Source: Nitrososphaerota archaeon (GTDB lineage: Archaea; Thermoproteota; Nitrososphaeria; Nitrososphaerales; Gagatemarchaeaceae). Taken from it: a stretch of 64,000 nucleotides of DNA. A program made the translations under genes and the position numbers. Position 1 is the first letter of the stretch, and each line of letters opens with the position of its first letter. The notes under the pieces were generated by a model. That model saw nothing but the letters and a program-made list of their open reading frames with translations. It was not told where the DNA came from and did no database searches. The stretch covers positions 62,001 to 126,000 of the forward strand of contig JAPCJI010000002.1 of the NCBI GenBank assembly GCA_027887005.1, given 5' to 3'. This document shows positions 19,422 through 24,050 of the stretch, piece after piece.

Positions 19422-19448
19422 TCCTTGCCAGAATCCAGCGGTTGCGGT

Positions 19449-19982
19449 TTGGCGCAAGCATTCGAAGACAGCGAGAAACAATCCAAAACGCTGCATCGAA
19501 TCTTCCTCTTTCTCTACCTTCAGTTCGCCTTCTATTGGGCGACAATCGCCGCGGGAATGCTCGTGAACTACTATTACGCGGTGCCCGGTGACATGCAAGC
19601 AAACTTCAGCAGCATCCTCCTGCAGTTCTTCGCCGCGCCTTCGCTCTTCGCCCACGTTACTTTCGCGGTTCTAAGCACTAGCATGAGCATTCCGGTGATC
19701 ATCTTAGCGAGAAGGGCCCGGCTTTCGCATGTAGTTCTCCTGCACGCTGGCGCAGTCACCGCAAGGATGGTGGGCTTCATTACTGGTCCGTTGTTCATGT
19801 ACTACGCGACTTCCGAAGTTGCTGACCCCTATTCCGCGAATATCTCGACCTTCATCATGGCCTCGGTGTTCCTGACCGCCGTCATCCTGACGTTCATGAG
19901 CAGGATATTCATTGTCAGAGAGGATGTCCGGATCAAGTACGTGGTGGGCGCAACGCCTCTGGTAGGTTTGAGACCGCAATGA
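19449..19982 (+). CDS. Four-TM membrane protein of the bc-type locus (unit A)
   Basis: Not recognised. From TTG 19449 the protein has 177 residues: a short charged start (MAQAFEDSEKQSK), then four hydrophobic segments. Key features are FAFYWATIAAGMLVNYY in TM1, FAHVTFAV at the start of TM2, RLSHVVLLHAG at TM3, and a final TM ending in SRIFIVRED. The TM1 [aromatic]-x(n)-GM pattern and the histidine at TM2 recur in the next two genes, suggesting a shared 4-TM fold. Position directly upstream of a Rieske protein and cytochrome b suggests a membrane subunit or assembly factor of that complex. The longer start TTG 19425 is possible. Confidence 0.7.
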   Translation: MAQAFEDSEKQSKTLHRIFLFLYLQFAFYWATIAAGMLVNYYYAVPGDMQANFSSILLQFFAAPSLFAHVTFAVLSTSMSIPVIILARRARLSHVVLLHAGAVTARMVGFITGPLFMYYATSEVADPYSANISTFIMASVFLTAVILTFMSRIFIVREDVRIKYVVGATPLVGLRPQ

Positions 19983-20464
19983 GGGCAGTATCGCTTGAGG
20001 GGGAGGAGATTGGCAATCTCGGCCTTCAAGGCCTGAAGCTGACATTGAGGCTTTGCTACTTCAACTTCGTCGTCTACCTCGCAATATACATAACAGGAAT
20101 GTATCTCAACATATTCGTCACCTCGGGAGTGAACACCGTAAGCATAGGGGACACCTCCAACATGGTACACATGGTAGGGGCCACCCTGAACTTTGCATTC
20201 ACCTTCATCGTGATGATGGTGGGTTTCATCTATGGAATGCGGAAGGTGGCGTTGTTCAGCCTTGGGGCGGTTGCCTCCTTGGTTGTGGCCACGATTGGAG
20301 GACTGCTGTTCCTGGCGACCGGAGGCGGGAGAGGCTCTGGAGGACTCACCCTTGCCGGCGGATGGATAATGTCACTCCTCTTCATGCTCGCGCTCTTCCT
20401 TTCATACTACGCCACTCTGAAGATCATGAGGGCGGTCAGGATACTGGAAACCGTCCGAACGTAG
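19979..20464 (+). CDS. Four-TM membrane protein of the bc-type locus (unit B)
   Basis: Not recognised. The 161-residue protein has four hydrophobic segments: YFNFVVYLAIYITGMYLN (TM1), MVHMVGATLNFAFTFIVM (TM2, with the histidine shared with its neighbours), KVALFSLGAVASLVVATIGG (TM3) and a last TM after a Gly-rich loop (TGGGRGSGG). Its ATG overlaps the stop of the preceding gene by four bases (ATGA). Spacing of GM in TM1 and His in TM2 matches units A and C, so these look like tandem paralogs. A heme- or quinone-related role is inference from context. Confidence 0.7.
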   Translation: MRAVSLEGEEIGNLGLQGLKLTLRLCYFNFVVYLAIYITGMYLNIFVTSGVNTVSIGDTSNMVHMVGATLNFAFTFIVMMVGFIYGMRKVALFSLGAVASLVVATIGGLLFLATGGGRGSGGLTLAGGWIMSLLFMLALFLSYYATLKIMRAVRILETVRT

Positions 20465-20476
20465 TGAGAAGATGAC

Positions 20477-21364
20477 ATGCTAGGGATGAATGGTTCGTTG
20501 GGATCCGTGGCAGGCGCTGACGAAGGGCAGGCGAAATGGCTCGTATACCTAATCTATCTTCAGGCGGCCTTCCTCGCCGTGACCTACGCCGAGGGGATGT
20601 GGTCGGCGCTTACTGTGCCCAGCTTCTCAGTCACCCTGCCTGATGTTATCGAGCACGGGGTAGCGTCGTCCGGGTTCGCGCTGATGACAGGCGTTGTGGG
20701 GTTCGTGGCTGCGCTCCGGGGTCACAGGCGCGTAGCGATCTCTAACATTGTACTCTTCGTCATCACGGTGATTGCTGGTTCAACTGGCTTCGCATTCCTG
20801 GCCAACACGACCGACCCCGGCCAAATAGCGGAGACGAACCTTTCAATGATAGCGACGGTCGCGCTGGGCATGCCCATCACTGGATACTCCCTGACCAAGG
20901 TGTCCCGAGCGTCAAGAAGCGACCCGGGCGACGCGTCCCCTGCCACCATTATGATCTATTTCGCGCTGGGGACGCTTGCCATTACGATCGTAGCAGGCGC
21001 TGCCATGCTTTCGACTTCACCGTCATGGTACGCCTTCGCCGTCTCGGCACATGTCGGGTTGGCGGCCCTAATGGTTGCCCTTGTTCTGGGAGTTTTAGTG
21101 ACATCTGTAACGGGAGCGTTCGGAGGAGATGCGTCGAAATGGGACCCGCAGGCGGTGGCCTACTCTCTCATTGCCCTTGGGTCCGCGACAATCGCAGGTG
21201 CCGACGGCGTGGTCTACATGACTTCGGGCGGCCTTTCGTACGTGATAGCAATGGCGGAAGTGGGCGTCCTCGTCTACGTCTTCCTGATGATCGCAAGCGC
21301 CGGGCCACATCATCGGGGGGTCACTCGGATTGACGGCGAAGGCCCGGCAAGAATTGCGCCTTGA
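20477..21364 (+). CDS. Eight-TM membrane protein, internally duplicated 4-TM unit (unit C)
   Basis: Not recognised. The 295 residues contain about eight hydrophobic segments forming two similar halves. Half one: YLIYLQAAFLAVTYAEGM, then VIEHGVASSGFALMTG, then RRVAISNIVLFVITVIAGS. Half two: YFALGTLAITIVAGAAM, then VSAHVGLAALMVALVLG, then AVAYSLIALGSATIAGADG. Each half repeats the plan of units A and B, with one histidine at the start of its second TM. The two-times-four-TM architecture recalls heme A synthase (CtaA/Cox15), but I do not see its full set of paired histidines. Stop overlaps the Rieske TTG. Confidence 0.7.
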   Translation: MLGMNGSLGSVAGADEGQAKWLVYLIYLQAAFLAVTYAEGMWSALTVPSFSVTLPDVIEHGVASSGFALMTGVVGFVAALRGHRRVAISNIVLFVITVIAGSTGFAFLANTTDPGQIAETNLSMIATVALGMPITGYSLTKVSRASRSDPGDASPATIMIYFALGTLAITIVAGAAMLSTSPSWYAFAVSAHVGLAALMVALVLGVLVTSVTGAFGGDASKWDPQAVAYSLIALGSATIAGADGVVYMTSGGLSYVIAMAEVGVLVYVFLMIASAGPHHRGVTRIDGEGPARIAP

Positions 21365-22356
21365 GTCGTGGTTGGACAGTGACCTCCGCTAGTACTCCGA
21401 TTCGTCTTCCTGATGTTAAGTCGGGAATCCTGCAGATGGCGTTCCTTTGCCTTGCCATCATGTCTACGCTGTTGGCCATGCCGCATGCGGCCAGGGCCCT
21501 CGCTACCAGTGGGAATTCGACCCGGACCGCGGTGGGGTTAGGTTCGACGAACCTGAACCTCACAACTGGGGCCGTTGTGACTTTCATCATCCTGCTGCTG
21601 GGGCTTGCCGCCGCGTTCTTGCTGATAGGGAGGTTCCAGAAGTCCCAGAAACGTAGCCAAGATTCGGTCACGGTGGACACGAAGTCCACGGAGGCCGACG
21701 AGGTCGCCGAGAGGGCCAGAAGCAAGAGGAACTTCCTGAAGCTGATGCTCACTCTGGGCGGGGTAGCTACCCTGGGCACGTTCGCGAGCATCTTCAGGAT
21801 ACTTGAGTACGTGCCTGCGCCTGGGCAGGGTTCTCGCACGACTGTCGCTCTCGCCTGGCCCGAGATCAAACTCGTCAACATCTCGACCCTCGATCCTTCC
21901 AAGCCGCTGCGCTTCAACTACCCGCTCGTGGACACGCCGTGCGTGCTCGTCAAATGCGGGCAGAAGGCGGACTACGGGGTCGGGCCCGATTCAGACATAG
22001 TCGCGTTCAACGACATCTGCCAACACCTGGGGTGCTTCTACGCGGTTCTTCCGCCGGGTTCGTCACCTCCGTGCGACGCAACTTTCCTTGCGGCCACTCC
22101 TCAGGGGTACTGTTGCTGTCATGGAGGGCAATACGACTTCGTCCATGCAGGCACGGTGATTGGGGGGCCCCCGCCGAGGAGTGTTCCTCAGGTCGTGTTG
22201 CGATTCGATGCGAGCACCGGCGACATCTACGCTGTAGGGATGGGGGGCCCCACGATCTTCGGGCACGGGCCGCCAGGAACGACAGACCCGGCCCTGGTGC
22301 TCAAGTATGACCTCACGGGCGGAACGGTCGTGACAGATGCGACGGTGTTCTCCTGA
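21361..22356 (+). CDS. Rieske iron-sulfur protein with extended N-terminus
   Basis: Electron carrier of a bc-type quinol-oxidising complex, passing electrons from quinol to an external acceptor. The 331 residues carry the 2Fe-2S boxes C220-x-H222-x-G-C225 and C251-x-C253-H254-G-G; C225/C253 would form the usual disulfide. Ahead of the cluster domain come three hydrophobic stretches: about 23-45, 68-90 and 126-147. The third follows SKRNFLK (121-127), resembling a Tat motif with KR for RR, which normally sits at the very N-terminus of Rieske proteins. TTG start overlaps the preceding stop (TTGA). Confidence 0.9.
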   Translation: MSRGWTVTSASTPIRLPDVKSGILQMAFLCLAIMSTLLAMPHAARALATSGNSTRTAVGLGSTNLNLTTGAVVTFIILLLGLAAAFLLIGRFQKSQKRSQDSVTVDTKSTEADEVAERARSKRNFLKLMLTLGGVATLGTFASIFRILEYVPAPGQGSRTTVALAWPEIKLVNISTLDPSKPLRFNYPLVDTPCVLVKCGQKADYGVGPDSDIVAFNDICQHLGCFYAVLPPGSSPPCDATFLAATPQGYCCCHGGQYDFVHAGTVIGGPPPRSVPQVVLRFDASTGDIYAVGMGGPTIFGHGPPGTTDPALVLKYDLTGGTVVTDATVFS

Positions 22357-22371
22357 ACGGGAGGAAATGAC

Positions 22372-23784
22372 ATGAGCACAAACCTGGGAGGGAAGCTCGT
22401 GGAATGGGTGAAGACGCGTTTCGGGCTCCGGACAAACGTATTGCGTCCCGTCCCGGAATACAGCATGAACCCCCTCTATTGGCTCGGCGCGTTGACGACC
22501 ATCGCATTTGGCCTGCAGGTCTTCACTGGCCTTCTGATGATGATCTATTACGTTCCCACGGTCGAACAGGCCTACTCCTCCACACAGTTCATCATTCAGA
22601 ATGTCCCCTTTGGCTGGCTCCTGGAAACCGTCCACCTTTACGGAGCCTATGCGATGATACTCCTGGCCCTACTCCACCTCTTTCGTGGCTACTTCCTCAG
22701 CGTCCAGAAGAAACCCAGAGAAATGATGTGGGTCACAGGAATGCTGATGGGCCTGACTGTGATGGGGTTCGGCCTCACGGGCTACCTGCTTCCGTGGACC
22801 GTGGTGTCCAAGTCTGCCACCGACGTCTCAATTGGCATGTTGAGCTTCCTTCCCGGACAGGTTGGGTCCATAGTCACGTTCCTCGTGGCCGGTGACGGCA
22901 GCAGCGCGGGAGAGCTCACGAGATTCTTTGACCTTCACATCCTCGTCCTTCCAGCTGCTCTCATTTCGCTCGTCGCGCTCAAGCTCTTTCTATTCGAGGC
23001 ACACGGGGCCGCCGAACCTGTGACCGGCCCGAAGGAATCCCGGGACATCCCATGGTTCCCCACTGTCTACCTCTATTTCGCGATGCTGGGCAGCTTGCTC
23101 ATTGCTGCGATTGTAGTGGCTTCGGCGCTGTTCCCGTTCAACCTCGCAGCGCAATTCACGCCTGCCGGCGCAGCGAACTACGTGCCCCAGCCCGAGTGGT
23201 ATTTCCTGTGGATGTATCAGATCCTGAAGTTCGCCTCCTTCGAGGGCTCCGGGATATACTACGCGCTGGGAGTGGTGACGGCCCTGGTAGCAGGACTGGT
23301 GCTTCTGCCATTTGTTGACCGTGGGGTGGCGCGGAACCCGAAATCGAGGCCCCTCTACACCACCGTCGGCGCGATAACGGTCGCGGAGCTATTGGTGCTG
23401 ACAGTCTGGGGATACCTTACGCCTGGGCAGATAATCCCTGACGCGCAGGCGGTCGAAGTGGTCGGGGCTGCAGCCTTGGTTGGTGCGGTGATGTCCGCGT
23501 TTCTCCTCAGGATGCCGCGGGGGATTCAGAGGTTCACTTCGGCAATCAGGTCCATACCACTGGCGCTAGTCCTTCCCCTCAAGAACCGGGGGGCGGCGTT
23601 GGCCTTCGTGGCCCTCCTATGCGTCGGGTCGGTTTGCTTCGCCAACCTCGTCGGGTTCGCTTCAGGTGCGAAGGCGGGTTCACCGCTTCTCTTGCTGGAC
23701 ATCGCGGGGTTGGTCACAACTTTCTTCGCTATGGTGAGAATCATGAGAGGAATGACCTTGGCGTACCGCAGGTCCCAGAATTGA
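22372..23784 (+). CDS. Cytochrome b of a bc-type complex
   Basis: Quinol-oxidising membrane subunit binding two b hemes. The 470 residues fuse the b6-like and subunit-IV-like parts and add about three C-terminal TM segments. TM2 has the expected pair His88 and His102. TM4 has His189, but the second position (+14/+15) shows Leu203/Lys204 instead of His: the stretch reads SLVALKLFLFEAHG, while the family has a histidine where Lys204 stands. LLPWTVVSKSATDVSIG and the Qo-site PEWY motif (QPEWYFLW) are present. ATG follows a GGGAGGAA Shine-Dalgarno sequence, 15 bases after the Rieske stop. Confidence 0.93.
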   Translation: MSTNLGGKLVEWVKTRFGLRTNVLRPVPEYSMNPLYWLGALTTIAFGLQVFTGLLMMIYYVPTVEQAYSSTQFIIQNVPFGWLLETVHLYGAYAMILLALLHLFRGYFLSVQKKPREMMWVTGMLMGLTVMGFGLTGYLLPWTVVSKSATDVSIGMLSFLPGQVGSIVTFLVAGDGSSAGELTRFFDLHILVLPAALISLVALKLFLFEAHGAAEPVTGPKESRDIPWFPTVYLYFAMLGSLLIAAIVVASALFPFNLAAQFTPAGAANYVPQPEWYFLWMYQILKFASFEGSGIYYALGVVTALVAGLVLLPFVDRGVARNPKSRPLYTTVGAITVAELLVLTVWGYLTPGQIIPDAQAVEVVGAAALVGAVMSAFLLRMPRGIQRFTSAIRSIPLALVLPLKNRGAALAFVALLCVGSVCFANLVGFASGAKAGSPLLLLDIAGLVTTFFAMVRIMRGMTLAYRRSQN

Positions 23785-23798
23785 GAGCGGAAGACGAG

Positions 23799-24050
23799 AT
23801 GATGAAGTACACCGTGGAAACCCTGTTGGCGGCCGCCGCCCTCACGCTGACGGTCTATGCGTGGTTGATCGACCCGGTTGTGAACCAACGAGCCTTCGGC
23901 GCGTTGATCGGGTCGGCGTTTGTGATATTCTCCATGATCATCTACGCATACTACAAGCCCTCGCTTACAGGAAGCAGTAACACCTGGCTTCTCGCTGGAT
24001 GTGTTACCGTGGCCGTTTTCCTCTTGCTTGCGGTGCAATTGGCAAGCTAG
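23799..24050 (+). CDS. Small three-TM protein closing the bc-type locus
   Basis: Not recognised. From ATG 23799 the product is 83 residues with three hydrophobic stretches: VETLLAAAALTLTVYAWL, ALIGSAFVIFSMIIYAYY and LLAGCVTVAVFLLLAVQL. It starts 14 bases after cytochrome b with a purine-rich ribosome-binding region (GAGAGCGGAAGACGAG), so it is co-transcribed. A second ATG follows the first immediately. Small TM proteins of this size commonly stabilise respiratory complexes; that role is inference. Confidence 0.72.
   Translation: MMKYTVETLLAAAALTLTVYAWLIDPVVNQRAFGALIGSAFVIFSMIIYAYYKPSLTGSSNTWLLAGCVTVAVFLLLAVQLAS

Follow-up and report, generated by a model that had tools for sequence, protein, structure and literature searches.

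In the present study, we found that an archaeal cytochrome b, encoded in a stretch of 64,000 nucleotides from a Nitrososphaerota archaeon (hereafter, the window), carries a lysine where one of the four heme-ligand histidines is expected. The protein is probably the cytochrome b of a Rieske/cytochrome b (bc-type) quinol-oxidising complex, with heme bH bound by His102 and Lys204 rather than by two histidines. Related archaea keep this lysine across deep divergence. Cytochrome b is generally regarded as having, as a constant feature, two histidine ligands on each of its b hemes, and the one other His-to-Lys swap at the bH ligand known to us is that of a laboratory mutant. Searches of an open-access library revealed no natural His-Lys cytochrome b. 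The Gagatemarchaeaceae genome paper (PMC10640624) mentions terminal oxidases, and the word Rieske is absent from it.

Sequence and predicted structure of the cytochrome b

In a Pfam scan, the protein matched PF00033 (Cytochrome_B) with 128.1 bits against a cut-off of 27.2 (E 4.8e-37) and PF00032 (Cytochrom_B_C) with 42 bits against a cut-off of 20.7. By profile and by fold, it is a cytochrome b/b6 homologue; by its ligands it is a variant, as His is present at three of the four ligand positions and Lys at the fourth. The PEWY motif, which marks the quinol oxidation site, is also present (Table 1).

Table 1. Positions in the window of the cytochrome b gene, its key residues and the neighbouring genes
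Feature	Position	Strand	Basis
Membrane protein, no known family, 185 aa	19425-19982	+	No Pfam match
Membrane protein, no known family, 161 aa	19979-20464	+	AmoC-like below cut-off
Membrane protein, no known family, 295 aa	20477-21364	+	No Pfam match
Rieske-type iron-sulfur protein with N-terminal extension	21361-22356	+	PF00355, motif, neighbourhood
Cytochrome b, Lys-type, 470 aa	22372-23784	+	ORF/translation, Pfam, AlphaFold2 fold
His88 (CAC), helix B, heme bL ligand position	22633-22635	+	b6 alignment, invariance
His102 (CAC), helix B, heme bH ligand position	22675-22677	+	b6 alignment, invariance
His189 (CAC), helix D, heme bL ligand position	22936-22938	+	b6 alignment, invariance
Lys204 (AAG), helix D, heme bH ligand position	22981-22983	+	Ungapped b6 alignment, row conservation
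His211 (CAC)	23002-23004	+	Codon reading
PEWY motif, residues 274-277	23191-23202	+	P274 and W276 in all 52 Lys-type rows
Small hydrophobic protein, 83 aa, candidate subunit	23799-24050	+	Directly downstream of cytochrome b

The AlphaFold2 model of residues 1-386, calculated for the protein without heme from a 122-row alignment, had a pLDDT of 95.3 and a pTM of 0.92; an earlier model from 22 rows (pLDDT 56.8) was set aside. Foldseek revealed a Rhodobacter bc1 cytochrome b as the best match of the model. Comparison by VIA-align gave Z-scores of 30.6-36.9 over the 50 matches listed, with bc1 cytochrome b chains at the top (Z up to 36.9). The model thus predicts a cytochrome b fold for the Lys-type protein.

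We compared the sequence with known proteins. Chloroplast b6 (1q90_B, 7r0w_I) was the best PDB match, covering the N-terminal half and sharing the +15 spacing of the helix-D ligand pair; in contrast to the present protein, it has four His, with b6 and subunit IV as two chains rather than the single chain found here. The best NCBIfam match was the SoxC-type archaeal cytochrome b NF041076 (residues 10-386), although the score of 207 bits did not come near the 740 bits set as its curated cut-off.

A phmmer search of PDB chains aligned helix D with that of 1q90_B without gaps (E 3.7e-40). H189 corresponded to the first helix-D His, K204 to the second, E209 to an Arg and H211 to a Gln. A profile of 122 relatives likewise put the Lys204 column in register with the ligand His in b6 and in a Pseudomonas bc1 chain. 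In bc1 numbering, heme bL is served by the first His of each helix and heme bH by the second. By sequence, then, Lys204 replaces a heme bH ligand, the assignment to bH being taken from PMC4807273 together with the bc1 numbering. The original prediction had put Lys204 in place of the fourth heme-ligand His, which the ungapped b6 alignment bears out, and had His88, His102 and His189 at their usual ligand places, where they proved invariant in all 157 rows described below. It had also set Leu203-Lys204 at a spacing of +14 or +15; the spacing of +15 is that of b6, but Leu203 merely precedes the ligand position.

Conservation and origin of Lys204

Homologous rows were the top matches of searches built on A1 (the best 80 of 586 confirmed stretches), and genome searches each yielded at most the best 30 loci; the rows were aligned by MAFFT. 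Near-copies from one genus were numerous, and the counts were made after merging fragments and identical rows. The copy in the window (L001) was counted once, together with P0001, and the truncated row L024, which does not reach position 204, was left out of the counts.

Among the matches listed, position 204 held Lys in 52 and His in 105 of the 157 distinct rows, and no other residue was present. Lys was found in every one of the 52 archaeal rows of one group (Lys-type) and His in all 105 remaining rows (His-type), so that the Lys is conserved in a clade, the sign that the original prediction had named as support. The Lys-type rows share at least 32% identity with one another (median 54%), and their identity to any His-type row among the matches listed is at most 44%. 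Residues 202, 203, 205 and 206, which surround Lys204, are variable.

The hosts of the Lys-type proteins are Nitrososphaerota (including Candidatus Gagatemarchaeum and Geocrenenecus huangii) and Marsarchaeota G1, together with one Bathyarchaeota record and one record labelled Thermoplasmata. The nearest His-type rows among the matches listed come from additional Thermoplasmata records and from more families of the same phylum, and the His-type archaeal relatives among these matches all keep His. Families f8 and f10, the two with the largest numbers of genomes, gave weak matches only among the matches listed, and the eight rows from these and nearby families (L055-L061, L069) are His-type. Bacterial rows were few (23 in a 152-row tree) and all His-type, and further Lys in bacteria is possible.

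The genome of the window holds two Lys-type genes, on contig 2 (the window) and contig 7 (L031), and one all-His copy on contig 3 (L032). The latter belongs to the same Pfam family and its ligand positions match; it differs in having four His, with about 35% identity over the N-terminal match, and resembles the copy of other families of the order. The presence of both types in one genome offers a natural protein pair for measurement.

A sequencing error, misassembly or pseudogene, in whose favour nothing was found in this 26-contig draft genome, is refuted by the conserved Lys group. The Lys occurs in many genomes and in both Lys-type paralogs of the genome of the window, the frame is intact, and synonymous codons are used for Lys204 (AAG in 39 and AAA in nine of 48 rows). 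We give this explanation practically no weight.

With positions 119 and 204 left out, a 67-row tree required two changes between Lys and His, and the 152-row tree required two as well; both trees were built quickly and have long branches. Forcing a single Lys clade on the 67-row tree cost 0.70 log-likelihood units (p-AU 0.499) and was not rejected. Because of this, one gain followed by a return to His and two separate gains both fit the trees and cannot be told apart.

Gene neighbourhood and partner proteins

The gene directly upstream encodes a Rieske-type protein (PF00355, 26.4 bits against a cut-off of 20.3 in the Pfam scan) with a CxHLGC...CxCH motif, which places the cytochrome b in a putative Rieske/cytochrome b complex. 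A profile scan revealed a Rieske family member directly upstream in 51 of the 52 Lys-type and 95 of the 105 His-type rows, superseding a strict motif scan (38 of 48); the sole Lys-type row without it starts at a contig end. As the Rieske-family neighbours of L089 and L092 lack the strict motif, a normal Rieske cluster is only putative there. The Rieske ORF of the window is about 100 residues longer at its N-terminus than those of L033, L034, L071 and L073, which have a separate ORF of about 110 residues in place of this extension; the extension looks like a fusion.

The gene setting is that of an aerobic quinol-oxidising complex III analogue. The genome of the window contains two COX1 genes, and the Lys-type gene of the Marsarchaeota row L094 is preceded by COX1/COX3, COX2 and Rieske genes. 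At the second Lys-type paralog (L031), the gene before the Rieske gene encodes a protein that weakly resembles cupredoxin/CoxB.

Three genes for membrane proteins of no known family (19425-21364) stand before the Rieske gene in the window, and the 161-residue protein showed an AmoC score of 17.8 bits against a cut-off of 26.7. This three-protein block is conserved only in the subclade of the window (L033, L034, L071, L073). The original prediction had proposed that the unusual membrane proteins nearby could supply a replacement heme ligand. That idea fails on their distribution, since the three families were found in five of 22 Lys-type neighbourhoods and the Lys in all of them, and a ligand from these proteins was rejected.

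A family of small hydrophobic proteins (about 83-104 residues), represented in the window by the 83-residue protein, was found behind the cytochrome b gene in 48 of the 52 Lys-type rows and in one of the 105 His-type rows, where the match was weak (11 bits). The family profile was built from 14 members and the remaining matches form the independent part of this count; these include Geocrenenecus (E 5.5e-13), the Bathyarchaeota record (E 5e-17) and L158 (E 7e-6). Representatives of the family gave no Pfam or NCBIfam match over the cut-off, and we consider the 83-residue protein a candidate new subunit. The small protein was not found behind the Lys-type genes L089, L152, L093 and L094, which indicates that the Lys does not depend on it.

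Coordination of heme bH

The closest characterised case is the H212K variant of Rhodobacter capsulatus. According to PMC4807273, H212K arose as a spontaneous revertant of H212N, its heme bH is low-spin (gz ~3.2) with a potential raised from 80 to 130 mV (+50 mV), and the enzyme is functional in vivo, supporting photosynthetic growth with a turnover of 121 versus 149 per second. Its authors regard such His-Lys hemes b as, to their knowledge, without precedent in a transmembrane protein, and the word archaea is absent from that text. In both systems a Lys stands for the second helix-D His, the bH ligand, and for the archaeal protein, too, a low-spin His-Lys heme in a functional bc-type complex is predicted; the equivalence of the two residues comes from the shared helix-D role and not from a direct alignment of the two sequences. 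H212K is a laboratory revertant of a bacterial ubiquinol-cytochrome c2 enzyme, whereas the archaeal Lys is natural, fixed and set in surroundings of its own.

Lys204 might instead serve as a charge at the inner quinone site or as a propionate partner, with heme bH held by His102 alone, five-coordinate or with water, and hence high-spin and reactive. Heme ci of b6f is a somewhat similar case of a high-spin heme. The heme site and the inner quinone site are on one side of the membrane, and Lys is generally a weaker heme ligand than His, both of which would suit such an arrangement. It is at odds with the placing of K204 exactly at the ligand position and with the low-spin six-coordinate heme that the same swap produced in R. 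capsulatus, as reported in PMC4807273, and we regard it as improbable.

The original prediction had also allowed for the absence of heme bH. In that event Lys204 would fill space and electrons would stay at bL or exit elsewhere, and losing one ligand would be the first expected step. However, H102 is present in all 52 Lys-type rows, the Lys never drifts, and G53, G137, R105, R116 and W120 are likewise kept in 52 of 52. Loss of the heme is very unlikely, because an empty site is not expected to keep both His102 and Lys204 over such divergence.

The possibility that His211, Met119 or a partner-protein residue provides the ligand in place of Lys204 appears similarly remote, even though His211 occurs in 50 and Met119 in all 52 of the Lys-type rows. 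His211, which the original prediction had rightly dismissed, is off register with respect to b6, where a Gln is aligned with it; it is replaced by Gln in two of the 52 Lys-type rows, and 52 of the 105 His-type rows carry it as well. Met119 was rejected as a Lys-specific partner residue, as nine of the 105 His-type rows, six of them from one archaeal group, also have Met. Among the partner proteins, the upstream membrane proteins are too sparsely distributed, as described above, and the 83-residue downstream protein of the window contains no His.

As the other candidates for the sixth ligand fare badly, coordination of bH by His102 and Lys204 is the simplest account. Judged from sequence, it is most likely that heme is present at the bH site and that Lys204 is its ligand; conservation by itself does not distinguish a ligand from a Lys close by with a structural or proton-carrying role.

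Predicted function and significance

With heme bL held by His88 and His189 and heme bH by His102 and Lys204, quinol would be oxidised at the PEWY site. One electron would pass to the Rieske protein and on towards the oxidase, and the second would cross the membrane from bL through the His-Lys bH to the inner quinone site. If H212K is a guide, the Lys ligand would keep bH low-spin and lift its midpoint potential by tens of mV. A Q cycle would be expected in the complex of the Lys-type protein. The potential shift may not carry over, because the mutant is a bacterial ubiquinone enzyme. Overall, the homology of the Lys-type group to cytochrome b is clear and the four-His trait is absent, and the likeness to H212K suggests how these proteins would be expected to work.

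A further, tentative proposal, which we hold as possible though doubtful, is a natural His-Lys Rieske/cytochrome b complex with the 83-residue protein as its own subunit, in which a raised or pH-switchable bH alters how the inner quinone site and the pool share electrons. If true, such altered sharing could suit a higher-potential quinone or limit back-flow, and nature would have tuned the potential difference between the b hemes by a swap known only from engineered mutants. Independently of this proposal, the natural Lys-type group would represent evolution's test of whether the potential gap between the b hemes matters. Lys204 may also serve as a one-residue marker of a distinct archaeal complex III, and the group points to an unnamed candidate small subunit.

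Two minor observations concern the surroundings and the type of the heme. Glu209 (22996-22998), which is Arg in b6, is Glu in all 52 Lys-type and in 47 of the 105 His-type rows, and might belong to the inner quinone site. In the genome of the window, two short ORFs (contig 14:28904-29293 and contig 4:69354-69614) gave partial matches to heme A synthase (CtaA), one of them over the cut-off. Heme A may be made by this genome, and because of these CtaA-like matches the heme of the present cytochrome b could be either heme A or heme B.
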